Assembly: GCA_948144175.1 (NCBI GenBank)
Contig: CANXME010002275.1
Coordinates: 5,085,001-5,149,000 of the forward strand
Direction: 5' to 3'
DNA: 64,000 nt
Source: Closterium sp. NIES-65
Lineage: Eukaryota > Streptophyta > Zygnematophyceae > Desmidiales > Closteriaceae
Under the pieces are notes generated by a model. The model worked only from the letters and a program-made list of their open reading frames with translations, had not been told where the DNA came from and did not search any database. The position numbers and the translations under genes were made by a program. Of the stretch, positions 816 to 57,565 are shown piece by piece. Position 1 is the stretch's first letter. Each line of letters opens with the position of its first letter.

Positions 816-3800
816 AGCGGAACTTCCGCTACTGGACCAGCCAGTCGACAAGGTTATCCCGTCCGCCGTATCTGACGTGTACATCGTCCGCCTCCGCGCC
901 GCCCCGCCAATCGCGGGATGCACCGGCGGAATCAACGGGATTGCCGCCACGGCAGCAGAGGCTGTCAGAGACTCGGTGTCTGACGTCATCAACTCAGTGA
1001 CTGGCCAGATTCGCAGGGGGCGTCGCCGAGCGAGTCGCCAATCGTCGCGACTGAACCTGGGGGCGCCAGCAGTCGCACAGTTCAAGCAGTGGCTCGATCG
1101 GCTGCAGGATGGAGTTGCGAATGACGTGCGCCTGCCACGCGCGAATGTACTGTACAAGTGAGTTGTAACAATCAATGGAAGCTAATATGCTACTGTAGAT
1201 GCACTACACTTAATTTTCCAAACCTATTTTCTCCCTCTGCCAGTTCACTGATTCTCCCTCTGCCAGCTCATCACCCCTTTTTTTCTGCCCACTTCCCCCC
1301 CATCGTTTCCAGATTCAAGCACGTCAGCAATGCCTTTGTGGCGCGATTGACACCTAAGCAGCTGCAGCAGCTGAAGCGGCACCCAGCAGTTGCAGAAGTC
1401 AAGTCCAACTACCGAATCAGCAAGCTCACCACCGACTCTGCAAACTTTCTAAACCTGCCCGGGACGCTCTGGACTGCCCGGGGTCGCGAGCGGGCAGGAG
1501 AAGGTGTAGTCGTTGGAATAGTTGACACGGGTTTTTGGCCGGAACACCCTTCATTCTCCTCGAATGTTACTCCACCTGATCTTCCATACCCTAACCCTCC
1601 ATCAATCTGGAGAGGCACCTGTCAGGTGACATCTGATTTCAAGTGCAACAGAAAGGTGATTGGCGCGAAAATTTGCAACTCGGGGTTCCGGATGTGGTTC
1701 GGGCAGGAAGACACGACCGCTGATTGGACATCGGCTCGGGATGCGGATGGGCACGGCACCTGGTGTGCAGCGTGAGTGATCCATCCACTCCCCCCCTTGC
1801 CTCTTGCTTTTGAGTCGACTGCTGACGCGAGTGCTGATTGGACATCGGCGCGGGATGCAAACGGGCACGGCGCTTGGTGTGCAGCGTGAGTGTTCGATCC
1901 ACACCCCCTTGCCTCTCGCTTTCTTGCTTTCCATGGCGACTTTTGAGTCGACTAAAAAGGCACCTGGCGTGCAGCGTGAGTGATCGATATGACACCCCCA
2001 TGCCTCACCATCATGTTGCAGAGTATTTTTGAGAATTCTCAAAAATACTCTGCAAGATCGATACGATACCCCCGTGCCTCACCATTTCTTGCCTTTCACT
2101 TTCCACTTCAACCCTCTGAAAGACCATAATGAATGTCACTCTTTCTTGCTTTTCCGTCGTTGGACTCCACCTAAAAAGGCACATGCCGGCACCACCACTG
2201 GCATGATCGGGCTCCCCGGCCCCCGGGCCTTCCTCTTACCGTGCTCTCAGGATCCATCCCCCTTCAGCTTTTGAGGCGCCTCAAAACCCGGGCCTTCCTC
2301 TTAGTCTGTAGGATCCGTCATGTTGTTGTCTATCCCCTTTCAGCCCATAAGTCTGACTTTTGAGTCGACTCAAAAGTCACCCCGGGCTTTCCTCTTAGTC
2401 TACAGGATTCAACATGTTTCTTTCTTTCCCTCTACAGCTCATAAGGCTGAAGTACCAAACGCGTTTGAGCCTCTTCTCCTTCTCCCCTCGTCTCCCACTC
2501 CTCTCCTCTCCCCTCCACTATACAGAGCGGCATCAGGCAACAGCAACGTACCTGTGGTGCCCTCCCTCTGCTTAACCCCCTTCGCCTGCCTCCCCCACCC
2601 CTCCTCTCCCACCCCTCTTTCCCATTCAATAATGCAGAGCGGCAGCGGGCAACAGCAACGTGCCTGTGGTGCTATCTCCCCGCGACATAAACGTCGGCAA
2701 CGCCACCGGCATGGCACCCCGCGCCTTCCTCGCAGCCTACAAGGTCTTCTGGGGCAACTCTGTCACAGGCGGCGGGATCACTGCCACGTATGCTGACGTG
2801 GAGGCAGCAGTCAACGCGGCTGTCGCTGACGGGGTTGACGTCATCTCGCTCTCCCTGGGCGGCGCAGACCCCAGTGCCACGTATTTCAGCGATCTGCCGT
2901 ATTTATATGCGAATCTGGCCGGCACGGTGGTGGTTTATGCAGCGGGGAACTCCGGTCCTCCTCCTCTCACCTCTTCAATGTATCGCAGCATCTCCAACTT
3001 CTCGCCATTCTACCTCACTGTTGGCGCCAGGTGGGTTTCCAGGTGGCTTTCTGTTGGTGCCAGGTTAGTGGTAGGTGTCCTCAGGAGTTGACGGGGTTGA
3101 CGTCATCTCGCTCTCCCTGCGCGGCGCAGACCCCAGTGCCACGTATTTCAGCGATCTGCCGTATTTATTCGCGAATCTGGCCGGCACAGTGGTGGTTTAT
3201 GCAGCAGGAAACTCTGGCCCGCCTCCCATGAATCCACATGATAAAAGTGTTGTTTTGAGACGTCTCAAAACAACACTTTTATCGCGTGTCCGGCACAGTG
3301 GTGGCCGGCACGTGCAGCAGGAAACTCGGGCCCGCCTCCCATGAATCCTTCAATGTATCGCAGCATCTCCAACTTCTCGCCGTTCTTCCTCACTGTTGGC
3401 GCCAGGTGTGTTTCGGGCGCTTTTCCGTTGGTGCCAGGTGAGCTGTCAGGTGCTTTTCTGTTAGCCCCAGGTGAGCCGCCAGGTGCTTTTCGTTGGCGCC
3501 AGATGAGTGCTAAGTGTCCTCAGGAGGGTGGCGCTATGTGTTCAATCCAGGCCATGCGTGTGCCAAGTGAAGTGAAGGCCACCCCTGCCTTCGCCCTCCC
3601 CTCCCCTCCCCTCCCCCCCCCCTCCCCTCCTCTCCTCTCCTCTCCTCTCCTCTCCCTCCCTGCAGCACCATCGCTTGCAGCTACGTCTCTTCAGCCACGC
3701 TGGGCGACGGGCGAGTCGTGAAGCTGTACGGCCTTGTGCATTCCGGTATCAACCTCTCCTCCCCCTTTTTCCCTCCCCTTTCCCCTCCCCCTTTTCCCCT

Positions 3801-6800
3801 CCCCTTTCCCCTCCCCCTTTTCCCCTCCCCCCTTTCCCCTCCCCCTTTTCCCCTCCCCCCTTTCCCCTCCCCCTTTTCCCCTCCCCCCTCTCCCCCTGCA
3901 GCACCATCGCTCGCAGCTATGTGTCGGCTGCCACGCTGGGCGACGGGCGGGTGGTGAAGCTGTACGGGTTTGGCTCGGGAAACGTGCCGGTGCAGGGACT
4001 GGGGCTGGTGGAGGGCGCTGCAGCGCGGGCAGCCGGGAAGACTGAGATCGAGGTGGGTGTGGCGAAGGGCAGATGCAGTGCGGTGCAGGGTCTGGGGCTG
4101 GTGGAGGGTGTTGCAGCGCAGGCAGCCGGGAAGAGTGAGATCGAGGTGAGACTCGGAAGGAGATAATGAGCTTGAGTGTCAATGTCTGGCTGGCACTCAG
4201 GCAGGGTCGTGACTCCAGCTCCAGCAGCAAACTGCCCTGAGTTGACTTTTGAGGCGACTCAAAAGTCAACTCGTATGGGGCCACCAGCACCAGCAGCAAC
4301 CTGATCCACTCCCATTCCCTCCCCTTTGCTCCCTCACCCTGCAGGGTCAGTACTGCGCTGAATGCTCACTGAGCGCCTCCAAAAATTCAGGGAAGATCGT
4401 TCTGTGGTCGTATGAATGGGCCACCACCGGCAGCAACCTTCGTTGATCCACTCCCATTCCCTCCCCTTTGCTCGCCCACCCTGCAGGGTCAGTACTGCAC
4501 TGAATGCTCACTGAACGCCTCCACAATTGCAGGGAAGATCCGACTTTTGAGTCGACTCAAAGGTCTTCTGTTGCGATTGTATGATTGGACCAGCACCAGG
4601 AGAAATCCCTATTCCACTCTCTTCCGCCTCCCTTTCCTCTCGCCCTCTGCCCCGACCCTGCAGGGTCAATACTGTGCTGAAGGCGCACTGAACGCCGCCA
4701 AGATTGCAGGGAAGATCGTTCTGTGCTCGTATGGGTGGACCAGCAGCAGAAGCAAGGCAGCAGAGGTTGCTGGGAAGGGCGGCAGCGCTGTGATTGTAGT
4801 GGATGTGCCTGTAACAGCCAGAACGTACCCTATTTATGAGGCTCGGCTGCCGGTCATGGGATCAGAGGCGAGCGAGACGGGTGTTTTGCGCGCGTACACC
4901 CGCACTGCTGCCAGGTGAGGGGTTACTACACTCGCTTTCTGCGTTTAGCAAGGGTTATCCCCTCACACGTCTGCCATACCCACAGGACACACACAGCTAA
5001 ACCCAGTCCGACCCGACTTCCCCTTTCCCGCTTTCCCCCACCTCTCCTCCCACCCCTCCTCCCATCTCCCTCCCCCCCCCCCCCTTCTCTTCCGCTCCCT
5101 CTCCCTCTCCCCTCCACCAGCCTGGCTGCTTCCAGTAACCACCAGTCAAGCCTACAAAGCCGCTTCTTCTGTTTTAACTCACGCTTTGAGACGTCTCAGA
5201 ACCAGCCAGGCTGTTTCCAATAACCAGCAATCAAGCCCTCAAAGTCGCTTATTCTGTTTTGACTCACGAGTTCCTTCCCGTCCCTTACCCTCTCCCCGTC
5301 TTCTTCGTCTCGCTCTCTTCCCCTCTCCCCATCGCTCCCCCCTCCGCCAGCCCGACTGCATGCGTCGCCTACACTTTCAAAACAGCCTCGACCACTAATC
5401 AAGCCTTGAAATTCGCTTTTATTTCCTTCGACAAAAGAGTTTCCTCCCGTTCCCTACCCATTCCCCCTCTCCCCATCGCTCCCCCCTCCGCCAGCCCGAC
5501 TGCATCCTTCGCCTACACCTTCAAAACGGGCGTAACCAGCGATAAAGCCCTCACGCTTATTCGCTTTTGACTCACAAGTTTCCTCCCCCCACCTATCCAT
5601 TCCCCCGCTTCCCCCCACCTTTCCTTTCTCGCCCTCCCCTCCGCCAGCCCGACTGCATCCTTCGCCTACACCTTTAAGACGGACGTAACCAGCGACCAGG
5701 TTTTGAGGAGTCTCAAAAGACAAGGCCTTGAAAATTGCTTTCGTTTCTTTTGACTCACAAGTTCCCTCCCGCCCCCCACCCCTTCCCCTCTCCCCGTCGC
5801 CCCCCCCTCCGCCAGCCCGACTGCATCTTTCGCCTACACCTTCAAGACAGACGTAACCAGCGATCAAGCCCCGGACGACGCGTATTCCCTTCTGACTCAC
5901 AAGTTTCTTTCCCCTATTCCACCCCTACCCCCCTGTCCTCCCTCTACCCCCCCTCCGCCAGCTCGTCTGCATCCTTCGCCTACACCTTCAAGACGGACGT
6001 AACCACTGAGCACACCTTGAAAATCGCTTTCATTTCCTTTGACTCAGGATTTTCCTCCTGTCCCCTGCCCACTCCCCCTCACTCCCCCCTCCGCCAGTCC
6101 GACTGCATCCTTCGCCTACACCTTCAAGACAGATGTAACCAGCGATCAAGCCCCGGATGTCGCGTATTTCTCGTCTGCTGGTCCGCTCGTCAACCCCGCT
6201 ACTGCAGCCACCCTCTCTTTCCCCACCAACGACATCTTAAAGCCCGATATAATCGCTCCCGGCGTTTCTCTATGGGCCGCTGCGCCGTCCTCGTCTCTTG
6301 CATCTGCTTCTACCCCCGCTTACGCCATGCTTAGCGGAACCTCCATGGCTACTCCGCACTTGGCGGGAATCGCGGCGCTGCTCGTCGAAAGATACCCTGC
6401 TTGGTCACCGTCGCAAGTCATGTCCGCGATTATGACTACAGCGAGCGTGACTAATACTAAAAACGGGTCGATCGCCGCGGGTTTGACTGGAAACAAGGCA
6501 ACGCCGTGGGATATGGGAGCGGGCCACGTCAATCCCAATGGTCTTATGGACCCTGGGCTAACTTTTCCCGCCAGCGCTACGGATTATTATAACTTCCTTG
6601 CCGGGCAGAACTTGGTGAGCGCCAAAAGTTCCGTGCCAATCAGAACGAAGCTGTCGCCGATTCCAGCGTACAATTTGAACCGCCCGACGATTTCTGTCTC
6701 GCGGCTGAAAAAAACAGTGCTGGTATCGCGAACGGTGCAGAACGTTGCGAATACAGTATCCAGCTACACTTCAACTGTGGTTGCACCGCCTGGTGTTACT

Positions 6801-6974
6801 ACAGTCGTAAGTCCTAATAAATTCACAATCCCTCCAATGCGGGTTGTAACATTCACTATCAGGTTCACAGTCGCTAAGGCGTCTCCCGGTTTCCAATTCG
6901 GAAGCCTGACATGGAAGGACCAGTTTGGCCACGTGGTGCGGTCAGTGCTGGCGGTGCAACCTCTTTCCAAATAA
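798..6974 (+). CDS. Subtilisin-like serine protease (S8A), copy A lacking its 5' end
   Basis: Secreted-type plant subtilase relative. Exons I assign: about 798-1157 (prodomain), 1313-1771, 2638-3030, 3902-4052, 4664-4914 and 6098-6974, all GT-AG and phase-consistent. The catalytic Asp is in VVGIVDTG (exon 3), His in DADGHGTW (end of exon 3), the oxyanion Asn in YAAGNSG (exon 4) and Ser in LSGTSMATPH (exon 7). A PA-like insert is in exon 6 and an Fn3-like tail follows the Ser. Compared with copy B, the leader is fused to mid-exon 2: the start codon, signal-peptide exon, intron 1 and the proline-rich linker are missing, and an in-frame TGA lies just upstream near 793. There is no ATG in the remaining prodomain. 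The body is otherwise open, so this is either a young pseudogene or a gene with a new start. A polyadenylation-like AATAAA lies at 7090-7095. Confidence 0.82.
2016..2055. repeat. 40-bp perfect palindrome, AATT core
   Basis: Central 18-mer TTTTGAGAATTCTCAAAA at 2027-2044. The arms extend perfectly for 11 more bases on each side (TTGCAGAGTAT outward). It is flanked by a direct repeat of the intron text (GATCGATA... CCTCACCAT) on both sides. Confidence 0.95.
2269..2286. repeat. 18-bp palindrome, GCGC core
   Basis: Perfect TTTTGAGGCGCCTCAAAA in intron 3 of subtilase A. The phrase CCCGGGCCTTCCTCTTA occurs before it, and a near-copy starts immediately after it. Confidence 0.95.
2358..2375. repeat. 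18-bp palindrome, TCGA core
   Basis: Perfect TTTTGAGTCGACTCAAAA, with GAC/GTC extending both arms by three bases. It is followed by another copy of the CCCGGGCTTTCCTCTTAGTC intron text. Confidence 0.95.
3240..3283. repeat. 44-bp perfect palindrome, ACGT core
   Basis: Central TTTTGAGACGTCTCAAAA at 3253-3270. Arms GATAAAAGTGTTG and CAACACTTTTATC extend the symmetry to 44 bp. It sits between two echoes of the 3' half of exon 4 (3086-3232 and 3341-3405). Confidence 0.95.
4239..4272. repeat. 34-bp palindrome with one imperfect core base
   Basis: Arms GAGTTGACTTTTGAG and CTCAAAAGTCAACTC are perfect. The central tetramer reads GCGA instead of a self-complementary tetramer. It lies in intron 5 of subtilase A, between echoes of the exon 5 donor side and the exon 6 acceptor side. 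Confidence 0.9.
5110..6097 (+). repeat. Array of exon 7 acceptor echoes in subtilase A
   Basis: The acceptor and first roughly 60 bases of exon 7 (CCGCCAG then CCCGACTGCATCC and the codons for AYTFKTDVTSDQA) recur at about 5347, 5489, 5645, 5811 and 5957 before the true exon at 6098. A weaker copy lies near 5120. Spacing is about 145-165 bp. Each copy ends in polypyrimidine-rich intron text. Palindrome relics occur near 5185 and 5703. Confidence 0.85.
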
Positions 6975-7779
6975 GGCTCAAGGATGGAGTCAGGCATCTC
7001 AAAAGGACTCCTGATACCTTCCTCCTACGGCCAATGTATATGTCTTCCCCTTGAGTTATTCCCAGGTGGGACCCTAGTACGGTATTACCAATAAAGGGAA
7101 TGGCTCCCTGCCTGCCCTGTGCAATGATTTGATCGTAATTGGTGCTCCTGCCATCCATCCATGTCATGACATGGCCAGGCGTGTTGTTTGCATAAACGAG
7201 TCGTGCTGTGCGTGTATAATGGAGTACAAAGCGAGTGGAAATCATGAACAAGTGCTCGGTACCAACCACTCACAACACTGCCATTGCGGATGTTTTCTCC
7301 CTAACCATTTCTCTGTGTGATGTGGTGGTGGTGGTCTCTGTAATTCTGGTTGGACAGCCGCACATATAGTGCTCCACTAAAGGAGGTTGGAAACTCTGTA
7401 TACAGCTGAAAGATCAGCATGAGCAGTTACGGAAGGAGGATTAATCAGCGTAGGTACTGAAAAAACACATCATCATGAACTCCTACCCAAATCAGGGTAA
7501 ATTGGCTGACTAGTGGTAACACACGTTTCCTGTACAGCATGTATCCATCCATCAGTTCCAGCAATCATGCGCGGAAAACTACCATCACTCTGAAAAGATA
7601 TCATGCTACAAGTGAGCATGGCATGTGGATGAGTCCAGAGACCTGCCAATACAAAAAGCGGGAAGCAAAAACATACCGGTATGTAGGAGCGGGAGAAACC
7701 CCCATGAAACATGGCGAAACCACTATCGGAAAGCAAGGAATGAGGGAAAGAGGCAAAGTTCCAAGTCAACCATACAACC

Positions 7780-8035: not shown

Positions 8036-8072
8036 AAGGCAGCTCGCTTCTGATAAGTCCCACAAACCAGAC

Positions 8073-14292
<6,220 letters not shown>

Positions 14293-14380
14293 CTGGACAA
14301 GGAAGGAGACGCAGAGAATAAGGAATGACCGAGAGAGGTTAACGGCATGGGAGAATGGAGTGGAATGTGAAGGAACTCAT

Positions 14381-16863: not shown

Positions 16864-24807
<7,944 letters not shown>

Positions 24808-33120: not shown

Positions 33121-33221
33121 TCATTTACAATGTTCCTAGGTACATGGACTTATAGTATTTACACTATGTACAGAAAGTCCTAATGGAGTGCAAAGGTGTT
33201 AGCAAAAAGGAAATTGTGAAC

Positions 33222-37893: not shown

Positions 37894-40800
37894 CTACTGG
37901 AACCAGCGACCCACCTGGTATTGCTCCTGTTGCTCCTGCGGCTTTGCATCCACCTGGTCCTCTTGCTTTGCAATCTTCGGGCCTTTGAACCACCGGTGAG
38001 CGTCAAGAAACCACCATAGAAGAAACACAGCCACCACCACCACAATACCAACGGCAGCATAGTTGAAATTCTCCGCCGTTACGGGATACTCGGTCGGGAT
38101 AACAAAGACAACCATGGTGTAGACTACGTATGTGAGAGCCAGGATGTGGACGCATTTGCTGGAAGTGGGGGATAAGGGGAAGGATGAAGAAAAAGGAGGA
38201 TTAATGGAGTGGCATAAGTGAAGGAGTAAAAGGGGAGGGGTATAAGAGAAGCAGATGAATCGGAAGGGGTGTAACGCAAGGGGAGGGGGGATATACATCC
38301 TTCACTTTACCATCCCTCGCCCCCTTGCTTTTCCTCATCCCCCCTCTCTTTCCCCCTCTCCCCCTCTTTCCCCTCTCTTCCAATCAGTATCTCTTCCTCT
38401 TCCCCACCCTTCCCTCCTCATCCGCCCGTGTGCCCGACGTAGTTCGGCAGATAGAACGGCCCCTTCTGGATGAACAAGTCTTTGTCCGACTGGAAGACAG
38501 CACCCTTCTCGCTCCTTTCCCTCCCTCCCCTCCCTTGCCCGCACCCCTCTGCCCGCGCTCACCCGCCCGTGTGCCCAATGTAGTTGGGCAGAAAGAAGGG
38601 CCCCAGAACGAAGTCCTTATTGGATTGGATAATTCGAAAGAAGACCGGCACTCCGTACGCGCCGAACCACCCCACGGTGGCCATGCCCGTGACGGCAAAG
38701 TGGGTGACAGACAGACTCCCCCAAACAGAAGCGCAAGGAGTGAAACACCCACCGTTCCCCTCCTCTTCCCCTCCTTCCCCTCTGTCTGCTATCGCCCCCT
38801 CTGTCTGCTACTGCCCCTCTGTCTCCAAACCACCCCTACCTCCCGCCCCTGCTCACCCGCCCGTGTGTCCGATGTAGTTGGGAGAAGGGCCCCGGAGCAA
38901 AGTCCTTATCAGACTGGATGATCCGAAAGAACACCAGTACTCCGTATGCACCAAACCACCCCACGGTGGCCATGCCTGTGATGGCAAAGTAGGCCACGGA
39001 AAGAACCCGCCAAGCAGAAGCACGACGACTGAAACACCCAAAGAAACCACCCGTCCCTCCTCCTTCCTATCCTCCCCTCTCTCCTCCCTCTTACCCGCCC
39101 GTGTGCCCGATGTAGTTGGGAAGAAAGAAAGGCCCCGGAGCAAAGTCCTGATCAGACTGAATGATCCGAAAGAACACAGGCACTCCGTAAGCGCCGAACC
39201 ACCCCACGGTGGCCATGCCTGTGACGGCAAAGTAGGCCACCGAGCCTCCGAGCAGCGGCATGAGGAAGACAATGGCGATGGCGCTGGTGCACGCTATGGC
39301 GTTCACCGGCACCTTGCTGGAGTTCACTCGGCGCCAGAGAAAAGATAAAGGGAGCCCGCGGTCGCGAGACAAGGCGTAGCCCTGTAGGGGGGGGGGGGGT
39401 TGAGAAGGACATGGGGGAGGAGAGGGACAGGGCGACGGGTGCTGCTGGTGCACACTATGGCGTTCACTGGCACCTTGCTGGAGTTCACTCGGCGCCAGAG
39501 AAAAGACAAAGGGAGACCCCTGTCCCGAGACAAGGCGTAGCCCTGGGGGAAAGCGGGTAGGGAAAGGGAGGGACGAGTTGAAGGTACTGCTGGTGCAGGC
39601 AATGGCGTTTCACTGGCACCTTGCTGGAGTTCACTTGGCACCTGTCGAGAGACAGGGCGTAGCCCTGTGGGGGTGGGGGGTGGATGGGGGCAGGAAGTCG
39701 ATGGCACTGGTGCAGGCAATGGGGCATTCTTGAGAATTCTCAAAAACACCCTGCAGCAGGATGGGGGTAGGAAGTTGATGACACTGGTGCAGGCAATGGG
39801 GCATTCACTGGCACCTCGTGGGAGTTGACTCGCCGCCACAGGAAAGAGAGAGGCAGGCAGGCCCCTGTCGCAAGACAGGGCGTAGCCCTTGGGGAAGTGG
39901 GGAGAGGAGAGCAGGGAGACGAGGAGGTGAAATTAGCACTGGGAACGTGAACAAACCACACCGCACCGCACCGCACCAAACCGCACAGCACACCACAATC
40001 CAACTCACCACACGGGCAGCAGCAAGGATGAGAGTGATGGTGGCGAAAAAGAAGGAGGTGAAGAAGAGACCCAGGAAGACACATGCACCCGCGCCACTGC
40101 CGAACCTGACAGGGAGAGAGATATAATGACAGGAAGGGAAGGCATGCACAGGAAGAAAATCATTAAATTAACCTTCAATTATTTACTATGGGAACCTTCA
40201 TAAAATCACCACCAACACACCTGCCTCCCCTCACACCTGCCCTGGTGGAACCCACCTGCCCTGGAACCCACCTGCCTTGGAACCCAACCCACCTGCCATA
40301 GAACACGTCCCAGAGAACCTGCACCTCTGTGCACTCCCTTGAAACGTCTGCAAACTCCCCACATATCACCTGCTCTGGGACCCAACCCACCTGCTCTGGG
40401 AAGGGAACCAACCCACCTGCCATAGAACACATCCCAGAGAATCTGCACCTCCGTGAAATCCCCGCCTGTCACCGTGTCCTTTGAAAGCAAGTTCTCCGGG
40501 TCCTGCATGTATGCACCAGCAGACACCCACGGTGAAATGGGAGCAAATTTTGAGACATCTCAAAAAGAGAACCTGCACCTCTGTAAAGTCCCCCCCTGTC
40601 AACGTGTCCTTTGAAAGGAAGTTCTCCGGGTCCTTCAGCCATGAGACTGGGCGAGCTGCAGCTTAGGAGAAGTCTCTTTTCGCATTTCCAAGACTTATTG
40701 AGACGTCTCACTAAGAGAATCTGCACTTCTGCAAAGTCCCCAGCAGTCATGGAGTGATTTGAAAGCAGGTTCTCTGGGTCTGGGTCCTGCAGGCACGCAG

Positions 40801-43800
40801 GCACAGCGAAAGGGGAGAGGAACAAAGCGATGTGCGCACCCAAAAGGTCCGCCTTACCAAACACACACACACACACCTACCCACCTGGATGCAGAATGTG
40901 AGGGCCACAATGACGCCCCACTCCACAAAGCAGATGACCGAGAGGGCAGCTATCATCGCAAAGGGAGTCGTTACGTCAGACCGCTTCGCCTCTTCTGACG
41001 TGTGCGCTGCTGCATCGAATGCGTAGAGCGCGTATTGCGACATGAGGAGGCCGGCTACCACCGCGTAGGCCTGGGATGGGAACAACCAAGAAGGGAGCGA
41101 AGAGAAGGAACAGTTGAGTAGTTTTGCCTCTTGTGACGTGTGTGCCGCTGCATCGAATGCGTAGAGCGCGTACTGCGACATGAGCAGCCCGGCTACCACC
41201 GCGTAGGCCTGGGATGGGAACAACCAAGAAGGGAGCGAAGAGAAGGAACCGTTGAGTAGTTTTGCCTCTTGTGACGTGTGTGCCGCTGCATCGAATGCGT
41301 AGAGCGCGTACTGCGACATGAGCAGCCCGGCTACCACTGCGTAGGCCTGGGATGGGAACAACCAAAGAGAACGGAGTAAAAGGAGTGGTCTATATTGTTG
41401 TCTCTTCTCTCCTGACGTGTGTGCCGCTGCATCGAACGGGAGAATTGAGGGGAGAAACGGAAGGAAGAGCATCAAATGCGGAGAGGAGCGTGGATTGTTA
41501 CTTGAGGTGTCAGTGGCGGACAGGTGGGCTGCGGAGGCCTTACTTCCATTCCATTCCATCAAATCTTGTTGTTCTTAGGACAAAGAGACAAACCCCACAG
41601 GATGCCTGCGTAGAGGAGCGTGGACTGTTGGTGTGACTTTTGAGAGGAGCGTGGACTGTTGGTGTGACTTTTGAGAGGAGCGTGGACTGTTGGTGTGACT
41701 TTTGAGAGGAGCGTGGACTGTTGGTGTGACTTTTGAGAGGAGCGTGGACTGTTGGTGTGACCTTTGAGAGGAGCGTGGACTGTTCGTGTGACTTTTGAGA
41801 GGAGAGTGGACTGTTGGTGTGACTTTTGAGAGGAGCGTGTACTGTTGGTGTGACTTTTGAGAGGAGCGTGTACTGTTGGTGTGACTTTTGAGAATTCTCA
41901 GAAGTACTGTTACTTGAGGAGGCCTGCTGCTATTACTGTGTATACGTGAACACCAGGGCAGGGGGTGAGGAGAAATTCAGGAATTACGCTCACTGATGGG
42001 AACCCCCGGAGTTACCCAACAGGATGCTGCTTGTTTGTTTGTTTGTTTGTCTCTTCGCCGGGTAAATAAGTGGCAGAATTGGGCAACAACTCACCCCGTT
42101 GGGGATGCCTGTGATGTGATGTGAGTATTGCACCTCAAAGAGACCCAACAGAACACCCACGAGGCTGGCAGATGGGTTGGGTCATAAACACTGCAAGAAC
42201 CATAATTACGTCTCCCACAGAAAGACTCACCCCGTTGGGGATGCCTGTGATGCTGTATTGCACCTCAAAGTGACCGAACACCCACGATGCTGGCTGGTGT
42301 GTCTTTGCAACAGCAGGGAGAGTAATTATAAACACGAAAGCCACTAGGATCTGGTGGGGCAAAGGGGGGGGAGCGGGAAGAAACAGGGAGAGGGAAGGGG
42401 GGTGCGGGGTGAACAAGAGCATGAGAGTGCGACAGCAGGGAGCGTGACTATGAACACGAATGCTTTTGAGACGTCTCAAAAGTCGAATGCCACTAGGAAA
42501 TGGTGGACTAAAGGGAGTGGGAGCGGGAAGAAACAGGGAGATGAGGCGAGGGCGGAAGAGGATTATGAGTGTGAATGTGCCAGCAGAGAGAGTGATTACA
42601 AACACCAGTGCCACTAGGATTTGGTGAATGAGGGGGGGAGAGAAGAAACAGGGAGGGGGAAAAACAGGCAGGTGGCAGAGGGTGAAGAAGAGCGTGAGTG
42701 TGAATGCGACCACAGCAGGGAGAGTGATAATGAACACCAGTTCCACTGGGATCTGGTGAACGAGGGGGGAGAGAGAACGGTCCCTCACTTGCAGCACTCT
42801 CCCTACTGCCGGCACTTGCCCCACGCGCTTAATGGGAAGAAATTTGATGGGTGCACAGACCAGAAGGTGTGCGCTCATGGTTTTGAGGCGCATCAAAACT
42901 AAAATGTGTGCGCTCATGGGTTCATTGTCTTGCATAAGTCACACCTGCACCACTCACGCACCCTCTCCTCTCTCACCCACTATCTCTCACCTGCAGCACT
43001 GTCGCCACGGCCAGCACTTACCCCACCACCTGCATGTACCATTCATCTACACTCATGCTCACCTGCAGCACTGCCCCCACGGCCAGCACTTGCCCCACGC
43101 GCTTGATGGGAAGCATGTCAATGGGGGCACTGTCGAGGATGATGGGTTATGGGCCAATCGGCATATACACGTCACACCTGCACCCCACTCTTTCGCAGTC
43201 CCTATCTCTCTCTCTCCTCACCTGCAGCACCGTTCCAATTGCCAGCACTTGCCCCACGCGCTTGATGGGAAGCACGTTGATGGCTGCACACATGAGAATG
43301 AGCGCCACACACGCTAGAAACTGCAGGTAGTCCGGGAAGGTGTATCCGCCACTGTTGGAGCCGCCTGGGGGAAAAGCAGGTGGAATGAACGGTATAGAAA
43401 CAGATGGGGTGAGGATTAGGGGAAAAGAATGAGCGCCACCCGCGCTAGCCTAGTTAGGAACTGCAGGCAGTCTGGGAAGGTGTATCCGCCACCGTTGGAG
43501 CCGCCTGGGGGGCAAAGGGGAAGCAAAGGGGTCGATGGGGGAAGACATGTGGCACACACAGAATGAGCGCCACACAGAATGAGCGCCACACAGAATGAGC
43601 GCCACACAGAATGAGCGCCACACAGAATGAGCGCCACACAGGCTAGAAACAGCAGGTAGTCTGGGAAGTTGTATCCGCCACCGTTGCTGTTGCCTGCTGC
43701 GGTGGAAAAGCAGGTGGAATGAACGGTATAGAAACAGATGGGGATGGGGGAGAAAGAGTAAGAGCCACGCACGCTAGGAACTGCAGGTAGTCTGGGAAGT

Positions 43801-45199
43801 TGTATCCGCCACCGTACGAAGAAAAAGGACCGGCAGACGGTGGGGTGGTGGGGGGGAGTGTTAGTCGTAACCAGCCACCCAGCCACCCACCCAGCCAGCC
43901 AGTCAGCCAGCCAGTCAGCCAGCCAGCCAGCCAGCCACCCACCCACCTGTGGCAAGCAGGACGAGCGACATGATCTGCTGGATGCCCCCAAACGCCACTC
44001 CGCCCACCCCCACTGACACCCCCACGAACTCCAACCAGCCCTGGGGATGCACGAGGGAGGTGGAGAGGAGTGGGAGGGATTGACGGGAGAGAGTGAGGGA
44101 AAAAGTAGATGTGACTCTTGAGTCGTCTCACTCATTCCCCCAAACGCCACTCCGCCCACCCCCACTGACAACCCCACGAACTCCAACCAGCCCTGGGGAT
44201 GCACGAGGGAGGTGGAGAGGAGTGGGAGGGAGAGGTAAAATGAAATCTGATCTGAGGCGACTGAAAATGAAAATGGACCCCCAAGGGCACTCCTCCCTCC
44301 ACAACAACCACCCATAATGTGTGCTTACAGCGATCCATCATCCATGCACAACCTCTATCTGTGCTTACAGCGATCCATCATCCATGCACAACCTCTATCT
44401 GTGCTTAAAGCGATCCATCATCCATGCACAACCTCTATCTGTGCTTACAGCGATCCATCATCCATGCACAACCTCTATCTGTGCTTACAGCGATCCATCA
44501 TCCATGCGGAGAGCAATGCCAAATCTCACCATGATGTATGGTGGTGCATGCATGCACAACCTCTATCTGTGCTTACAGTGATCCATGCTGCAAAGGGGCC
44601 GTACTTTGGGCCGGCGAGAGCAGCCGCCCAGAAATAGAGCGAGCCAGCTGTCTGTATAGGGCAATGGGGGAGGGGAGGGGGAGGGGTGGAGAGGTGTTTT
44701 GCGCAGTGCGGTTCCAAAAAGCAGCTGCCCAGAAATAGAGCGAGCCAGCTGTCTGTGTAGGGAGGGGAGTGAGGGAGGAGAGGGGGAGGGGTGGAGAGGA
44801 GTTTTGAGCGGTTCTAAAAAAGCAGCCTTTGTGTGGGCAGCCGCCCAGAAATAGAGCGAGCCAGCTGTCTGTGTAGGAGAGTGCGGGAGAGAGGGAGAAG
44901 GAGGTGCAGTAGAGAGATGAGGGTTGGGGGCGGAGAGGAGATTTGCGGTGTCCCAAGAAGCAGCCTCCCTGTGGAGCAGCCGCCCAGAAATAGAGCGAGC
45001 CAGCTGTCTGTAGACATGAGTGGGGGAGGGTTGGGAGGGGCAGAAACGGAGACGAGAGGAGGTTAGGTGAGGCGGAGATGAGATGAGGGGAGGGGAAGAC
45101 GAGAGGAGGGGAGGAGGAAAGGAGAGGATGGGTGGGAGACGGGACGAGAAGGAAGGCAACGAAAAAGGCATGTGTGCATGTGTGTGTGTGTGCGTGTGT

Positions 45200-45233
<34 letters not shown>

Positions 45234-49328: not shown

Positions 49329-49363
<35 letters not shown>

Positions 49364-52300
49364 GGGGGCTTTTAGGCACGGCTGTTGTATTGAGAACCCA
49401 AGGGCTGTTGTATTGAGAACCCAAGGGCTGTTGTATTGAGAACCCAAGGGCTGTTGTATTGAGAACCCAAGGGCACGGCTGTTGTATTGAGAACCCAAGG
49501 GCACGGCTGTTGTATTGAGAACCCAAGGGCACGGCTGTTGTATTGAGAACCCAAGGGCACGGCTGTTGTATTGAGAACCCAAGGGCACGGCTGTTGTATT
49601 GAGAACCCAAGGGCTGTAGCCTTCAAAGATGAGCCCACGGTTCTGTTTTAAACCTTCAGGCATGCCCACTGGGGTTGATGTTCGGGGTTTAAGTTTGGGT
49701 CTCAGTCTCGGATGAAGGTTTGGGGTTTAAGGCCTCGGGTTTATGTTTTGTTCAAGCTCATAGTACTTTGTCCTTCCCATTCATGCTCCCCAATCCCTCC
49801 CTCCTTTCTTTTTGCTTCAATCTCCTAATCTTAGCCCTTCCCCCCACCCACCTTCACCTCCGCTCCCCTTCTCCCCTTCAACCCCCCTTCACCTCCCCAC
49901 CCCTTCTCTCCTTCTCCCCTTCAACCCCCCTTCACCTCCCCACCCCTTCTCTCCTTCTCCCCTTCAACCCCCCTTCACCCGCACAACGATTCTGAATGCC
50001 GCCTGATACACAGAGAGCCCACCCAACCGCCTTTCTTCTCCTCCCCCTTGCCTCTCCCCACCTTCCTTGCCCCTTCCCCCCCGCTTCCCCCTCTCTCCGC
50101 CCAACCCCCCCCTCCCCTCCCCTCCCCCCACCAGCACTACGATCTGAACGGCCGTCTGCTGCACAGAGTGCCCACCCGCCTCTCTGCTACAGCCTCTGGG
50201 CGGGGAGAGAACAGCTCCCTGCTACAGACGTGAGTCTCTGCTACAACTTCTAGACGTGGTAATTACTGCGTTTTGTTTCATTACTGAGCCTTAGGTCTCT
50301 CCGTTCCTCTGCACCTCTCACCACCCGCTGCCACCTCTCACCATTCCCCTCCCCTCCTCTCAGCTCCAGCCCAAGTCGATTATGCAGCAATCTTGTTCTC
50401 GCTCTCGCTCTCGCTCATAGAAGAACTGCTAGCAATTTTCGTCTCCTCTGCTCCTTGTTATCTTCCACCTCTCTTCATTCCCCCCCTCCCATTTTCTCAC
50501 CATTCCTGTCCCCTCTTCTCACCATTCCCGTCCCCTCCTCTCACCATTCTTGTCCCTCTTCTCACCATTCTCCCTCCCTCCTCCTCAACAGGTTGAGTGT
50601 GAAGCAAGCGTGCACAAGTGGGGAGGAGGTGGGAGGGGAGGAATGGGTGGAAATCAAACTAGAGGAGGTCAACCGGATCACAGCAGCCAATCGCCTTCAG
50701 GCACGTGGCAGAGGACTTTTCACAATAGAGAATGATTAAGATGGCTGGCTCGTGTAATAAGAGTATTTTTGAGACGTCTCAAAAATAGAGAATGATTAAG
50801 ATGGCTGGCTCGTGTAAAAAGAGTATTTTTGAGACGTCTCAAAAATAGAGAATGATTAAGATTGCTGGCTCGTGTAAAAAGAGTATTTTTGAGACGTCTC
50901 AAAAATAGAGAATGATTAAGATGGCTGGCTTGTGTGAAAAGAGTATTTTTGAGACGTCTCAAAAATAGAGAATGATTAAGATGGCTGGCTCGTGTAAAAA
51001 TAGTATTTTTGAGACGTCTCAAAAATAGAGAATGATTAAGATGGCTGGCTCGCGATGATGCTTGGGCTGTCAGCTCGGTTTTGTCGGGTTGCTATGATGT
51101 GACACATCGTTGTGACATTGCAACCCGCGGGAGGCACATAGTACATTGTGCCTCTTCCTACCCTGCCCCTCATTTCCTCTACTCTCCTTACCCCGGCTGC
51201 CCATACCCCTCACTTCCCCTACCCCCACTCCCTATCCCCGCTGTATCTCCACTCCACTCTGTCCCTCGACCCCATCCCTCACACAGTGAGGGCAGTCACA
51301 TGCCGCTCTTTCTTTTGCATTTCCACTCCCATCTCTCTGACATCCCATTCCATTTCCAATCCCATCTCTCTGACATCCCATTCCAGTTCCAATCCCATCT
51401 CTCTGACATCCCATTCCATTTCCAATCCCATCTCTCTGACATCCCATTCCATTTCCAATCCCATTCCATTTCCAATCCCATCTCTCTGACTCCCCTCTCC
51501 TCTGTATGCAATTCAGGTCGCCTGGTTCCCAGACTACAGGGCATACGCGTTGAGCCACCAAACCGCAGAGGACTTAGTGAGGGCGCTGGCAGTGGGGGTG
51601 GTGGGAGCAGAGGCAGCAGATGCCTACGAAGCAGCAGAGGTCATCCGAGGGGTGAAGCTGCCGTCCCGCCGCCCGGCTCTCGTCAGCGAAACCTGCCTCT
51701 TCCTCTCCGAACCAGTTTCCGAAGCAGGTTCCGAACCAGGTTCCGAGCCTCCTGCCGAAGCAAGCTCAGAAGAAGATGTAACTTGGGGAAATCGGAGGGT
51801 GCGCACATTCCATGTGCTGGACTCCAAGGGAATGATCGACACCCTGGGAGTGTTTGTGGAGGAGAGGGAGGGAGCGGGTGAGGATGGTTCAGGGGCAACG
51901 ACAGCCCATGCGAGAGAGTTATTGGAGGTGAGTCATTAAAAAGGGAGAGGGTGGGAGGGGGCGTGCATTCCATGTGTTTGACTCCAAGGGAATGATCGAC
52001 ACTCTGGGGGTGTTTGTGGAGGAGAGGGAAGCAGCGGGTGAAGCTGGTCCAGGCGCTACGCCACCCCGCTAGCGAGTCAAGATGGTCAAGATGGTCAACA
52101 TGGTCAACATGGTCAACATGGTCAACATGGTGACGACAAGTCGGAGCACTTTAAGGCGTGTAACTTTTTTCCGAAGCGTCAAATGTCCGGACCAGCTTCT
52201 CAAACCGTACGGGCAGCGTCGGTTCGGAAGGTTTTAGACGTTTGTCCGGACGAGTCCCGTACGGACCTCTATGGTAGAACTTTTTTTGTGGCGAAAACGT

Positions 52301-55300
52301 GAACTGTAAACGAAATGATAACGACCTGTTACGCGACATGATTTTTGAATTCGCCCTCCAATGAAAGCGCACCAAAATGGGACGGTCCGAACTGCAACTG
52401 GACGCTGAACGGACGGAAATATCCGCCAGAAATGTCAAAAAGTGTCACATTCTGTCCGTACGCCAGCGACGTCGCCAAGGACCTCGCGAACAGCCATACG
52501 AATAGGGCCGAAAACAGTAACCACGTCTGTTGTCCGGACCATCCCAAGTACGGACCGTGGTTCGAAAAAAAGTTACACGCCCTTAGAGAGCTACTGGAGG
52601 TGAGTCAATGAAAGAGGAGAAGAGAAGGCGGGTTGTGCGTTACATGTGTTGGATTCAAAGGGAATGATCGACACTCTTGGGGTGTTTGTGGAGGGCAGCA
52701 GGAAAGGATCAAGTGAAGAAGGCACATGGGTCCATGGCAAAGAGTTCATGGAGGCGAGTCAATGAATGAAAGAGGAAGAGGTGGGTGCGAGCGTTCCATG
52801 TGCTGGACTCCAGGGGGACGATCGACACCCTTGGGGTGTTTTTGGAGGAGTGGGAGGGAGCGGGGGTGAAGCTGGGTCATCCCAGAACCCAGGGGCAACG
52901 GCAGCCCATGCGAGAGGGCTTCGGGAGGTGAGCCTATGAAAAATCGGTGGGTGCCTTTTGAGGCGCCTCAAAAGTGGATCCCGTTCCATGTGCTGAGGTT
53001 TAGGGCAATGCTTGACACTCTGGGGGTGTTTTTGGAGGAGTGGGAGAAAGCGGGTGAAGCTGGGTCAGGCGCAACAACAGCCCATGCCAGAGAGTTATTG
53101 GGAGGTGAGTCAGTGAAAAGGGAGAGGTTGGGTGAGAGCTTTCCATGTGTTGGACTCCCAAGGGGATGATCGACACCCTTTGGGGTGTTTTTGGAGGAGT
53201 GGGAGGGGAATGAAGAAGATGGTCCAAGGGCAACAGCAGCAGCCCATGTCAGAGAGCTTCTGGAGGTGAGTCAGTGGTGGTTGCGAGCTTTCGATGAGGG
53301 CAACGGCAGCCCATGCCAGAGAGCTTCTGGAGGTGAGTGAATTACTTTTGAAAGGAGAGGTAGGGTGCGCGGGTTCCATGTGTTGGACTCAAAAGGGGAT
53401 GCATCCACAAAGGACACGCTGGGGGTGTTTGTGGGAGGGGAATGGAGAAGGAGCGGGTCAAGATAGTCAAGAAAGTCAACATGGTCAGGTCATATTGGCC
53501 CGCTCCTAGCATGGGCCAAGGGGTCATCTTCACATGTTGGCCCGCTCCTAGCATGGGCCAAGGGGTCATCTTCACATGTTGGCCCGCTCCTAGCATGGGC
53601 CAAGGGGTCATCTTCACATGTTGGCCCGCTCCTAGCATGGGCCAAGGGGTCATCTTCACATGTTGGCCCGCTCCTAGCATGGGCCAAGGGGTCATCTTCA
53701 CATGTTGGCCCGCTCCTAGCATGGGCCAAGGGGTCATCTTCACATGTTGGCCCGCTCCTAGCATGGGCCAAGGGGTCATCTTCACATGTTGGCCCGCTCC
53801 TAGCATGGGCCAAGGGGTCATCTTCACATGTTGGCCCGCTCCTAGCATGGGCCAAGGGGTCATCTTCACATGTTGGCCCGCTCCTAGCATGGGCCAAGGG
53901 GTCATCTTCACATGTTGGCCCGCTCCTAGCATGGGCCAAGGGGTCATCTTCACATGTTGGCCCGCTCCTAGCATGGGCCAAGGGGTCATCTTCACTTGTT
54001 GGCCCGCTCCGAGCATGGGCCAAGGGGTCATCTTCACATGTTGGCCCATGCCTGCCAGAGAGTTGCTGGAGGTGAGTCAGTGAAAAAGGAACAGCTGGGG
54101 TCGTTTATTTCGTGCACATCCACCACCCACCGGTCTTCAGTTGTTCCCTTCCTTCTCCCCTCCCTCTGCCCTCCGGTCCTCTTCCTGCTTTTCTGGCGCA
54201 ACCCGACCCGCTCGCTGCCCTGATCCCCCCCCCCCTCCCGCCTGGCTCTACTGCTGGGCGAGTGGGACGGCACTTCAACACCCACCGGTCAAGCACTCAC
54301 CATCCCTACATTGCTCCCTTTCCCCCACTTCCGCCCTTATCCCTCCACCCTCCCTCCTCACCAGACGCAACCAGACGACCCCAGCGCCCTGATCCCCCCT
54401 TCCCGCCTGGCTCTGCTGCTGGGGGAATGGGATGGCACCTGCACCACCCACCAATCAATCACCACCCTTTTCCTCCCCACTCCATATTGGAGTGACTTTT
54501 GAGACTTCTCAAAAGTCACCACCCACCAATCAATCACCACCCTTTTCCTCCCCACTCCCCACTCCCTTCTCCTCGCCAGGCGCAACCAGACCCCACCAAC
54601 GCCCCGATCCCCCACTCCCGCCTTTCACTACTGCTGGGCGAGTGGGACGGCACCTCCACCACCCACCGATCGGCCATCTATGGGGAAACCGTCACCCACT
54701 CCACCTCCAACTTCTTCCTCACTCGCTTCAGTGACAGCAGCCTGGGCCTGGTGAGTCACCCTCTGCCCTCCATCCTCCATCTCCATTCCACGATCACCCA
54801 CCGGTCAGCCATCTATGGGGAGACCGTCACCCACTCCACCTCCAACTTCTTCCTCACTCTCTTCAGCGACAGCAGCCTGGGCCTGGTGAGTCACCCTCTG
54901 CCCTCCATCCTCCATCTCCATTCCACGATCACCCACCGGTCAGCCATCTATGGGGAGACCGTCACCCACTCCACCTCCAACTTCTTCCTCACTCTCTTCA
55001 GCGACAGCAGCCTGGGCCTGGTGAGTCACCCTCTGCCCTCCATCCTCCATCTCCATTCCACGATCACCCACCGGTCAGCCATCTATGGGGAGACCGTCAC
55101 CCACTCCACCTCCAACTTCTTCCTCACTCTCTTCAGTGATGCGAGCCTGGGCCTGGTGAGTCAACTTTTGAGTCGACTCACTCAGGAGCCTGGGCCTGGT
55201 GAGTCAACTTTTGAGTCGACTCAGGAGCCTGGGCCTGGTGAGTCAACTTTTGAGTCGACTCAGGAGCCTGGGCCTGGTGAGTCAACTTTTGAGTCGACTC

Positions 55301-57084
55301 AGGAGCCTGGGCCTGGTGAGTCAACTTTTGAGTCGACTCAGGAGCCTGGGCCTGGTGAGTCAACTTTTGAGTCGACTCAGGAGCCTGGGCCTGGTGAGTC
55401 AACTTTTGAGTCGACTCAGGAGCCTGGGCCTGGTGAGTCAACTTTTGAGTCGACTCAGGAGCCTGGGCCTGGTGAGTCAACTTTTGAGTCGACTCACTCA
55501 GGAGCCTGGGCCTGGTGAGTCAACTTTTGAGTCGACTCAGGAGCCTGGGCCTGGTGAGTCAACTTTTGAGTCGACTCAGGAGCCTGGGCCTGGTGAGTCA
55601 ACTTTTGAGTCGACTCAGGAGCCTGGGCCTGGTGAGTCAACTTTTGAGTCGACTCAGGAGCCTGGGCCTGGTGAGTCAACTTTTGAGTCGACTCAGGAGC
55701 CTGGGCCTGGTGAGTCAACTTTTGAGTCGACTCAGGAGCCTGGGCCTGGTGAGTCAACTTTTGAGTCGACTCAGGAGCCTGGGCCTGGTGAGTCAACTTT
55801 TGAGTCGACTCAGGAGCCTGGGCCTGGTGAGTCAACTTTTGAGTCGACTCAGGAGCCTGGGCCTGGTGAGTCAACTTTTGAGTCGACTCAGGAGCCTGGG
55901 CCTGGTGAGTCAACTTTTGAGTCGACTCAGGAGCCTGGGCCTGGTGAGTCAACTTTTGAGTCGACTCACTCAGGAGCCTGGGCCTGGTGAGTCAACTTTT
56001 GAGTCGACTCAGGAGCCTGGGCCTGGTGAGTCAACTTTTGAGTCGACTCAGGAGCCTGGGCCTGGTGAGTCAACTTTTGAGTCGACTCAGGAGCCTGGGC
56101 CTGGTGAGTCAACTTTTGAGTCGACTCAGGAGCCTGGGCCTGGTGAGTCACCCCCCCTTATTGCCTCCTTCCTCCCTCCTCCACCTCCACCACCCACCCG
56201 TCCGCCATCTATGGGAAGATGGTGACCCACTCCTCCTCCAACCTTTTTCCTCACCCGCTTCAGTGATGGGAGTTTGGGACTGGTGAGTCACCCGGCCTTG
56301 TCGCCTCCTTCCTCCTTCCCTGAAGGGCCTGCTACGAGTTTTGGGTCGACTCAAAGCTCGACTCACTTTTGAGTCGACTGAAAACTTGTCTCCTCCATCC
56401 TCCTTCCCTGAAGGGCCTACTACATGCCGTTCTACCCCCCCACCAAACTCGTGCTTCCTCCACCCCTTTTTGCCAACACCTGTTCACACATGCTTTCTTA
56501 CACCAGGAAGAGACAGGGGGTGACCTCTTCTTCAGGTGGAGGGGAGCCGTTGCAAGCCACTCAGAGGCAGCCCCTGAAGGGGCTTCTTCATTCCGTCCCC
56601 TTTCAACTCTCCCCTATTCTTTAATTCTTTTCCACATGCGTTCCTACACCAGGAGGAGACACGGGGTGACCTCTGCTTCAGGCGGCGAGGTGCCGTTTCC
56701 AACCACACAGAGGCAGCTCCCAAAGCTGAGGCCACCTCTACCGAAGCTGCAGCCTCGGAAGATCAGGCTGGGCAGGAGCAGCGGGACGGGGGCGGGCGCG
56801 TTGTGCTAGACGGAGGGCAGCAGATCACCCTCCTTCCCGGCGGTCTCGCTCTCTCCGCCCCCTGCTGTGTGCCCCGCGGCCGAGCTTTCTTCTTTGAAAC
56901 CATCCTGGCGGAACCAGAGGAGGGAGAGGGGGCAGGGGCTGGGGTGGAGAGGCAAGGAGGCGAGGGGGTGGGGGTTGGGGTGGCTGGAGCAGAGGGGTGG
57001 TGGCGGCGGCGAGTGGTTCGGACGTACGATCCGGATGGGTTGGTTGTTTCCAGCTCAGTGTTCGCTGAGAGGAAGCTGGGATGA
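48757..57084 (+). CDS. DUF3598-like plastid protein
   Basis: Exons: 48757-49182, 50135-50229, 50592-50700, 51517-51927, 54580-54750 and 56653-57084, total 1,644 nt, 547 residues, all phases matching. The first 80 residues are Ser/Thr/Arg-rich with few acidic residues (MALLAGAPPTLMPNVV onward), a likely plastid transit peptide, followed by an acidic Glu run. Recognisable family text: FVKINEGQWRGAF, AYALSHQTAEDLV, RTFHVLDSKGMIDTLGVFVE, LLLGEWDGTSTTHRSAIYGE, QQITLLPGGLALSAPC and RVVRTYDPDGLVVSSSVF. Such lipocalin-like proteins occur in cyanobacteria and plant chloroplasts and have no settled function. Intron 3 appears to be GC-AG (CAG/GCACGT). Introns 4 and 5 are packed with echoes, minisatellites and palindromes. 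The family assignment is from memory of the pattern. Confidence 0.78.
49331..49362. repeat. CTG trinucleotide repeat
   Basis: About ten CTG units in intron 1 of the DUF3598-like gene, directly before the minisatellite at 49376. Confidence 0.95.
49376..49617. repeat. 23/28-bp minisatellite
   Basis: About nine copies of GGCTGTTGTATTGAGAACCC plus AAG. Some units carry an extra GGCAC between copies, so the period alternates between 23 and 28 bp. Confidence 0.9.
50752..51050. repeat. 60-bp tandem repeat carrying the ACGT palindrome
   Basis: Five copies of a 60-bp unit, each with a perfect TTTTGAGACGTCTCAAAA (50767, 50827, 50887, 50947 and 51007), plus flanking partial copies. With outer bases the symmetric core is TATTTTTGAG...CTCAAAAATA. 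The repeat lies just after the donor of intron 3 of the DUF3598-like gene. Confidence 0.95.
51335..51490. repeat. 33-bp repeat before DUF3598-like exon 4
   Basis: About five copies of ATCTCTCTGACATCCCATTC plus CA(T/G)TTCCAATCCC, polypyrimidine-rich and immediately upstream of the exon 4 acceptor. Confidence 0.9.
52154..52582. mobile_element. MITE, PIF/Harbinger-like, inserted in an exon echo
   Basis: A 429-bp element with terminal inverted repeats (A/G)GGCGTGTAACTTTTTT and complementary AAAAAAAGTTACACGCCC, flanked by TTA (52151-52153 and 52583-52585). The right flank continues as an exon 4 echo (GAGAGCTACTGGAGGTGAGT), so the element landed after the echo array had formed. Confidence 0.78.
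52956..52973. repeat. 18-bp palindrome, GCGC core
   Basis: Perfect TTTTGAGGCGCCTCAAAA at the boundary between two exon 4 echoes of the DUF3598-like gene. Confidence 0.95.
53490..54050. repeat. 42-bp minisatellite, about 13 copies
   Basis: Nearly perfect units beginning TTGGCCCGCTCCTAGCATGG. Each has an inverted pair GGCCC ... GGGCC around TCCTAGCAT. Both strands stay open throughout because 42 is a multiple of three; this does not indicate a protein. Confidence 0.95.
54199..54465 (+). repeat. Echoes of the DUF3598-like exon 5 start
   Basis: The acceptor region of exon 5 (CGCAACC.GAC... CTGGCTCTACTGCTGGGCGA GTGGGA) is repeated at about 54199-54290 and 54365-54450 before the true exon at 54580. 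An imperfect palindrome (TTTTGAGACTTCTCAAAA) lies at 54497. Confidence 0.8.
54751..55155 (+). repeat. Three 135-bp echoes of the DUF3598-like exon 5 end
   Basis: Three copies at exactly 135-bp period of the 3' half of exon 5 (SAIYGETVTHSTSNFFLT... SLGL), each ending in CTGGGCCTG/GTGAGTCA. The last leads directly into the 39-bp palindrome array. Confidence 0.92.
55144..56152. repeat. 39-bp array combining a splice donor and a palindrome, about 25 copies
   Basis: Unit: GAGCCTGGGCCTGGTGAGTC then AACTTTTGAGTCGACTCAG. The first half is the end of exon 5 with its 5' splice site (CTG/GTGAGT). The second is the TCGA palindrome lacking its last three bases. Three units are 4 bp longer (ACTCACTCAG), dividing the array into blocks of about 9, 12 and 4. 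Copies are otherwise nearly identical. Confidence 0.95.
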
Positions 57085-57098
57085 GAGGAAGGTGCGGG

Positions 57099-57565
57099 GG
57101 TGCTAGATGGATGGCAGCAGATCACCCTCCTTCCCGGCGGTCTCGCTCTCTCTGCGCCCTGCTGTGTGCCCCGCGGGCGAAAATTCTTCTTTGAAACCAT
57201 CCTGGCGGAACCAGAGGAGGGCAAGGGGGCGGGGGTGGGAGTTGGGGAGGAGGGGCAAGGAGGTGAGGGGATGGGAATTGGGGTTCCTGGAGTGGAGGGG
57301 TGGCAGCGGCGGCGAGTGGTTCGGACGTACGATCCGGATGGTTTGGTTGTATCCAGCTCAGTGTTTGCAGAGCGGAAGTTGGGGTGATGGCAGCATGGTG
57401 TCCTTTTGAGGCGCCTGAATGAGCGGAAGTTGGGGTGATACGGTATTAGCTGAGAGAACGATGGGGTATTTGGTAGATGAGATGGCATGGCTGGCAGTGA
57501 TTACTGAGTAGAGTTAACTCAATAAAGTGGTTCTGATGTACGATCCGGATGGCATTGCAGTGACC
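57099..57565 (+). repeat. 3' copies of the last DUF3598-like exon
   Basis: After the stop at 57084, a second copy of the terminal 95 codons (QQITLLPGG ... VFAERKLG and stop) occupies 57100-57387. It is followed by a clipped GCGC palindrome (TTTTGAGGCGCCTGAA, near 57402), a 20-bp third start (GAGCGGAAGTTGGGGTGATA) and a short decayed copy of TYDPDG near 57535. Confidence 0.88.

Follow-up and report, generated by a model that had tools for sequence, protein, structure and literature searches.

Short TTTTGAG-NNNN-CTCAAAA Palindromes Lie Mostly between Two Copies of Local Direct Repeats in the Closterium Genome

The genome of Closterium sp. NIES-65 contains a real family of short palindromes of the form TTTTGAG-NNNN-CTCAAAA (hereafter, linkers), and most of them have one copy of a local direct repeat on either side. 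The presence of one defined palindrome at the joint of a duplication is new. Probably, a short palindrome is captured during the repair of a staggered break in which the overhang is duplicated (a mobile hairpin). The observations underlying this reading are the segment-palindrome-segment order, the symmetry of the insert, the microhomology at its ends, the shared ageing of linker and duplication, and two empty sites.

In the window, i.e., the whole stretch of 64,000 nucleotides analyzed here, the pattern occurs 22 times exactly and 65 times with up to two changes, while 100 dinucleotide-preserving shuffles of the window give a mean of 0.20 and at most 2. The abundance beyond chance proposed by a previous sequence-only reading is thereby confirmed, and all 18 of its coordinates of perfect 18-mers are correct. 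The genome-wide count that it had called for was performed on 874,075,685 bases in 2,400 contigs: TTTTGAG-NNNN-CTCAAAA (TTTTGAGNNNNCTCAAAA) is found at 30,327 places exactly, compared with 4 for the backwards pattern. For the AATT core, the numbers are 2,601 and 0 (reversed control). The spacer between the half-sites is exactly four bases in 31 of 31 matches when spacers of 0-15 are scanned in the window and loci L121-L144; spacers of 0-3 and 5-15 give no match there. The constant unit is indeed 18 bp long, as was stated in the sequence-only reading, but the palindrome itself can be longer (40 bp at 2016-2055 and 44 bp at 3240-3283). Among 348,044 bases, 131 palindromes belong to the family (array copies counted). 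Outside it, 2,495 palindromes are present, of which 8 distinct ones are left after low-complexity sequences are dropped.

The central tetramer follows a rule, with some exceptions. TCGA, ACGT, GCGC or AATT occupies the core in 18 of the 22 exact-arm matches of the window, the others being GCGA (4247), GAGT (5701), ACAT (40548) and ACTT (54497). In the first 50 of the 30,327 genome places (counted by hand), these four tetramers are found in 46 cases, and the remaining cores (TTGA, AATC, ACAT and TCAA) are one transition away from the rule. Most of the exceptions look decayed. No further self-complementary core, which the sequence-only reading had likewise not seen, occurs among these 50 places, and the even spread across cores that would have spoken against the family is not observed, since four cores dominate. 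The core is self-complementary at 33 of 40 exact-arm sites of the collapsed 80-site sample used for the age test described below, compared with 2 of 120 listed matches in viral contigs (Fisher p about 6e-25). Viral origin was considered and rejected: at least 120 viral-contig stretches carry the pattern once each, and 2 of 120 self-complementary cores correspond to the chance level.

The linkers and arrays of the window are listed in Table 1. The claim that a target-duplication signature is missing turned out to be wrong. A flanking direct repeat with a score of at least 10 is present at 33 of 41 window sites (up to three changes), compared with 20.7% of 600 random positions. The larger sample combined the window with 20 evenly spaced 10-kb loci, 20 kb on each side of the window and 26 fetched stretches chosen for holding or adjoining listed pattern places (two of them are two bases long). 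Its 161 matches were collapsed to 111 sites; a few array members remain, so the sites are not fully independent. Direct repeats with a score of at least 14 flank 84 of the 111 sites versus 164 of 600 random positions between 1 and 57 kb of the window (Fisher p about 1e-21); since 27% of random window positions pass this test, a part of the 84 cases is due to chance, the share of sites expected to pass in this way being perhaps a quarter. Over all loci, 146 of 800 random positions pass. The other 27 sites have no flanking repeat at this score, and a gapped repeat test performed without a control, to which no weight is given, shows a match at 101 of the 111 sites. Clean cases are 9906, 17055 and 54497 (Table 1) as well as L145:5299 (60 bp, identical) and L147:2827 (44 bp, 98%).

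Table 1. Linkers and linker arrays in the window
Feature	Positions	Flanking repeats and remarks
Linker, TCGA core, one change	1941-1958	1875-1898 / 1965-1988, 92%
40-bp perfect palindrome, AATT core	2016-2055	1982-2011 / 2056-2085, 90%; contains 2027 18-mer
Linker, GCGC core	2269-2286	2222-2238 / 2287-2303, identical
26-bp palindrome, TCGA core	2354-2379	2287-2356 / 2381-2450, 79%; contains 2358 18-mer
44-bp perfect palindrome, ACGT core	3240-3283	3200-3235 / 3313-3348, 97%; contains 3253 18-mer
Linker, GCGA core, arms GAGTTGAC	4247-4264	4215-4234 / 4284-4303, 90%
Linker, two changes	5184-5201	Exact joint of 5117-5183 / 5202-5268, 85%
Linker, AATT core	9906-9923	9885-9903 / 9924-9942, 19 bp identical
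Linker, GCGC core, two changes	12469-12486	Exact joint of 12431-12468 / 12487-12524, 92%
24-bp palindrome, AATT core	17052-17075	16966-17047 / 17075-17156, 82 bp, 99%; contains 17055 18-mer
65-bp array	20287-20444	Two GCGC linkers (20334, 20399) between 47-bp segment copies; last copy partial
38-bp array	22104-22233	Four copies of a 16-bp segment, separated by three AATT linkers
Two GCGC linkers, 27-bp spacer	26855-26917	26831-26849 / 26923-26941, 95%
Linker, AATT core	27629-27646	Weak repeat, score 10
Two TCGA linkers, 53-bp spacer	29150-29238	29116-29149 / 29239-29272, 34 bp identical
Linker, ACAT core	40548-40565	40436-40504 / 40566-40634, 90%; 43 extra bases on left side
Linker, ACGT core	42464-42481	Ungapped repeat not found
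60-bp array, five ACGT linkers	50724-51052	
Linker, GCGC core	52956-52973	Ungapped repeat not found
Linker, ACTT core	54497-54514	54442-54483 / 54517-54558, 42 bp identical
39-bp array, about 25 units	55143-56150	TCGA linker per unit, right end lost
Two TCGA linkers, 10-bp spacer	56339-56384	56297-56335 / 56385-56423, 92%
Linker, ACAC core, one change	63505-63522	63399-63449 / 63525-63575, 92%

The spacer between the two TCGA linkers at 29150-29238 corresponds to 29168-29220. A related copy near 22345 holds the 16-bp segment of the array 22104-22233 once, with three differences. Tandem arrays of other composition are present as well. In the 31-bp array at 41612-41893, the unit carries the left half TTTTGAG only, and the array terminates with a complete AATT linker that differs at one position. 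Units of the near-perfect short tandem arrays at 20605-20854, 28904-29140, 44320-44507 and 53491-54047 are free of linkers, while head-to-tail linkers with a 24-bp period and 6-base spacers are found at L158:282-347 and L146:5185-5465.

The duplicated segment is 14-84 bp long with one case of 121 (84 sites; median about 38; flanks of 150 bases limit the length), and its length varies continuously with no fixed value. The distance between the repeat copies is 18-32 bp in 34 of the 84 cases (with an upper bound set at 110). Upstream of the duplicated segment, A is in excess (33 tight sites), at least partly because of neighbouring array linkers, and no fixed target motif was found at the duplication. 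A very short MITE, i.e., a DNA-transposon remnant with TTTTGAG-N4 terminal inverted repeats, would account for the inverted repeats, the high copy number and the insertion with duplication. Such an origin is very unlikely, as the duplications are long and variable instead of short and fixed, no terminal repeats enclose an interior at any spacer other than four up to 15 in the window and loci L121-L144, and isolated half-sites are few in the window; the view that these are not ordinary MITEs is thus upheld. Variable target duplications are usual for LINE-type elements, and a hairpin RNA could be inserted by a LINE-type reverse transcriptase. This origin is hardly more than conceivable: instead of one constant tailed end and one truncated end, both ends of the insert vary, and an A-rich tail is absent from the inserts inspected. 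At the duplication border, where an endonuclease motif would be expected, the A excess is owed at least in part to array neighbours.

Linker mismatches rise as the flanking repeats diverge (rho -0.37, p 0.004; based on those 59 of 80 sites that have a duplication). Linker and duplication therefore seem to derive from the same event, and the events seem to cover a range of ages. Ordinary slippage could have produced the duplications first, with palindromes accumulating or being kept later, e.g., for protein binding; the window is rich in tandem duplications, as the 164 of 600 random positions show. This order of events is extremely improbable given the common ageing and the location of linkers exactly at the joint (e.g., 5184, 9906, 12469 and 20334).

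Two subtilase genes (PF00082) of opposite orientation, 818-7193 and 25257-30471, lie within 31 kb and are 83-92% identical in their three longest alignments. Four neighbourhoods of the first gene were aligned to the second one. At 2027 and at 3253, a single copy of the segment and no linker are present in the second gene, i.e., both sites are empty in the paralogue. The 2269 linker has no counterpart there. Opposite the 2358 linker, the same-core linker 29150 is aligned, so a shared origin of this pair is possible. The paralogue alignment is poor in the neighbourhood of 4247. Pfam-supported exons of the first gene are located at 1317-1769, 2639-3028, 4658-4912 and 6021-6971 (the last from residue 42). 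Its nine linkers (1941 to 5701, up to two changes) all fall between these exons, which agrees, for this gene, with the assertion that no linker lies in an exon. The 44-bp palindrome 3240-3283 is situated within an intron, inside a copy of the exon 2639-3028.

Many linkers are found inside introns of nuclear genes. Ty3-type coding sequence is present in 16 of 24 ten-kilobase loci, and none of these 16 holds a linker; linkers occur in 5 of the 8 loci without such sequence (Fisher p 0.001). Window blocks were left out of this test. The last of them contains both, its linkers (56 kb and 63,505) being outside the Ty3 frames. The distribution reflects either a preference of insertion for genes or a younger age of the retroelements. 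The sequences GAATTC, GTCGAC, GGCGCC and GACGTC are restriction sites. They form the centres of linkers, as could be expected of an adapter or assembly artefact. Such a source can practically be dismissed, as artefacts account neither for the increase in linker mismatches with repeat divergence, nor for the empty paralogous sites, nor for the lack of linkers in the 16 Ty3-bearing loci; a library adapter, named earlier as one of the refuting conditions, is very unlikely in view of the shared decay and the empty sites.

The sequences outside the 18-mer indicate how the insert could be formed. Profiles read by eye point to an arm preference: AGGTGAC precedes TTTTGAG at TCGA sites, and the pattern CGTG...A...AG...TG is seen at ACGT sites. 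Long arms are perfect complements within a site and differ from site to site. Symmetrical arms of at least 8 bases are found at 8 of 111 sites versus 0.0008 expected by permutation within core families; the longest arm, 17 bases, is at L166:504. Microhomology exists at the joint of linker and segment: the segment continues the consensus for 0.97 bases compared with 0.35 (sd 0.12) for permuted ends, a value reached in 0 of 4000 permutations (33 ends of TCGA sites whose arm exactly matches part of the consensus). Close pairs of linkers were sorted by hand, and those whose spacer is an array unit or copies the duplicated segment were left out of the count. The core is the same in 7 pairs and differs in 2 (L146:2661/2687 and L147:378/440). 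The pairs 1941/2027, 2269/2358, 12418/12469 and L145:156/215 were excluded, the spacer in each being a segment duplicated by a later event; their cores differ in all four cases.

According to the capture reading, a short palindromic insert of 18 to about 54 bp would have the 18-mer as its constant centre. Two offset cuts would enclose 14 to over 80 bp, both overhangs would be filled in so that this segment is duplicated, and the palindrome would be joined between the two copies, often via about one base of microhomology. The variability of the duplication would follow from offset cuts, fill-in and joining. The fixed centre, the variable outer ends, the microhomology outside and the full self-complementarity suggest an insert made by fold-back of one strand or by pairing of two identical halves. 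The self-complementary tetramer could be a two-fold protein site or a sticky end. The palindrome may be mobile, its copies being derived from other sites or a shared source, presumably with the participation of an enzyme; neither a donor copy nor an enzyme for the capture was found. Some inserts may later be turned into arrays by slippage. At 17055 and L166:504, the arm by our own reading looks like the border of the duplicated segment in inverted orientation. This suggests that arms may in some cases be synthesized locally and counts against capture or copying.

Alternatively, nothing moves, and the linker is a scar of templated end-tailing: a polymerase with a fixed template would tail both ends of a staggered break with arm-TTTTGAG-tetramer, after which the tetramers anneal and are ligated, much as linkers are in cloning. 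The restriction of cores to self-complementary ones, the fixed centre with variable outer ends, the likeness of arms within but not between sites, the microhomology outside the arms and the same core in 7 of 9 close unique-spacer pairs could all be explained in this way. We regard end-tailing as unlikely though worth keeping in view: the cores of 2 of the 9 pairs differ, the template and the enzyme are not known, and locus-specific arms would need several templates. Doubtful, too, is the broader proposition of a natural linker-ligation repair which, over a long period, generated tens of thousands of tandem duplications and expanded introns throughout the nuclear genome.

Several described systems share features with the linkers. 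Organelle genomes of Volvox carteri contain short hairpin-forming palindromes, 14-79 nt long in the plastid (PMC2670323). As in Closterium, the host is a green alga, and short palindromes with a shared four-base centre and variable stems occur in great numbers in introns and intergenic DNA (PMC2670323). Unlike the linkers, which are present in 30,327 copies in an 874-Mb assembly, many of them within introns of nuclear genes, the Volvox palindromes are mainly organellar and judged inert in the nucleus; their loops, TAAA or TTTA, are not self-complementary, whereas the Closterium cores are (PMC2670323). The words "duplication" and "target site" are absent from the main text of that paper. The LIMP palindromes of Lobosphaera incisa mitochondria, 19 copies with a 7-nt loop and stems of pentanucleotide repeats, are likewise a dispersed family with an invariant centre and variable stem length, but differ from the linkers in their location, loop, stem composition and copy number (PMC4524435). 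In mammalian cells, fill-in at break ends leads to small tandem duplications, in which, as at the Closterium sites, an overhang is filled in, joined and duplicated (PMC8355091). The abstract on these duplications mentions no constant palindrome at the joint (PMC8355091), and the Closterium joints have one. Variable direct duplication and microhomology at the joint, as expected from break repair, are both found in Closterium; instead of a blunt joint or filler without recurrent sequence, one constant 18-mer is present. Introner elements of Amoebophrya resemble the linkers in having inverted and direct repeats, a mobile appearance and a location in introns (PMC7789003). They form introns themselves, with direct repeats of 3-5 nt and no constant 18-mer (PMC7789003), while in the first subtilase gene all nine linkers are embedded in larger introns.

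The exact 18-mers gave no text match in the open-access papers searched. Open-access literature on Closterium genome assembly and palindromes consisted, by title, of papers on other subjects, and "palindrom" is absent from the main text of a Closterium genome paper (PMC10407611). The statement that no element of such a kind has been described therefore holds in that no nuclear family combining linker and duplication was found in open-access literature. In the tests made here, the linker family behaves neither as MITEs nor as introners or LINE-mobilised insertions, and it is regarded as new within the scope of open-access literature and one Closterium genome assembly.

If the capture reading is true, each linker records the place and the approximate time of origin of a tandem duplication, and a usually invisible mutation process becomes countable genome-wide. 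It would also show intron growth from copies of neighbouring exons and disclose either a mobile DNA that is among the smallest or a repair pathway writing a fixed sequence.

Introns with decayed tandem copies of the adjacent exon are present at 2639-3420, 21430-21850 and 22480-23060; the genes concerned are the subtilase gene and an AMP-binding gene resembling long-chain acyl-CoA synthetase. Judging by these copies, introns here seem to grow by exon duplication. A hairpin of another kind, with 19-bp arms and a 6-base loop, is located at L147:3472-3515 and is unrelated to the TTTTGAG family. The Ty3-type retrotransposon of the window (58091-62604) has open gag and pol frames. The best matches of its polyprotein (59086-62604) are from Closterium, and some stretches share 90-97% identity with Closterium sp. 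Yama58-4. An identical 16-bp palindrome, AGTGCCACGTGGCACT, is found on either side of the element, at 57719-57734 and 62681-62696, and both copies probably belong to its terminal repeats.
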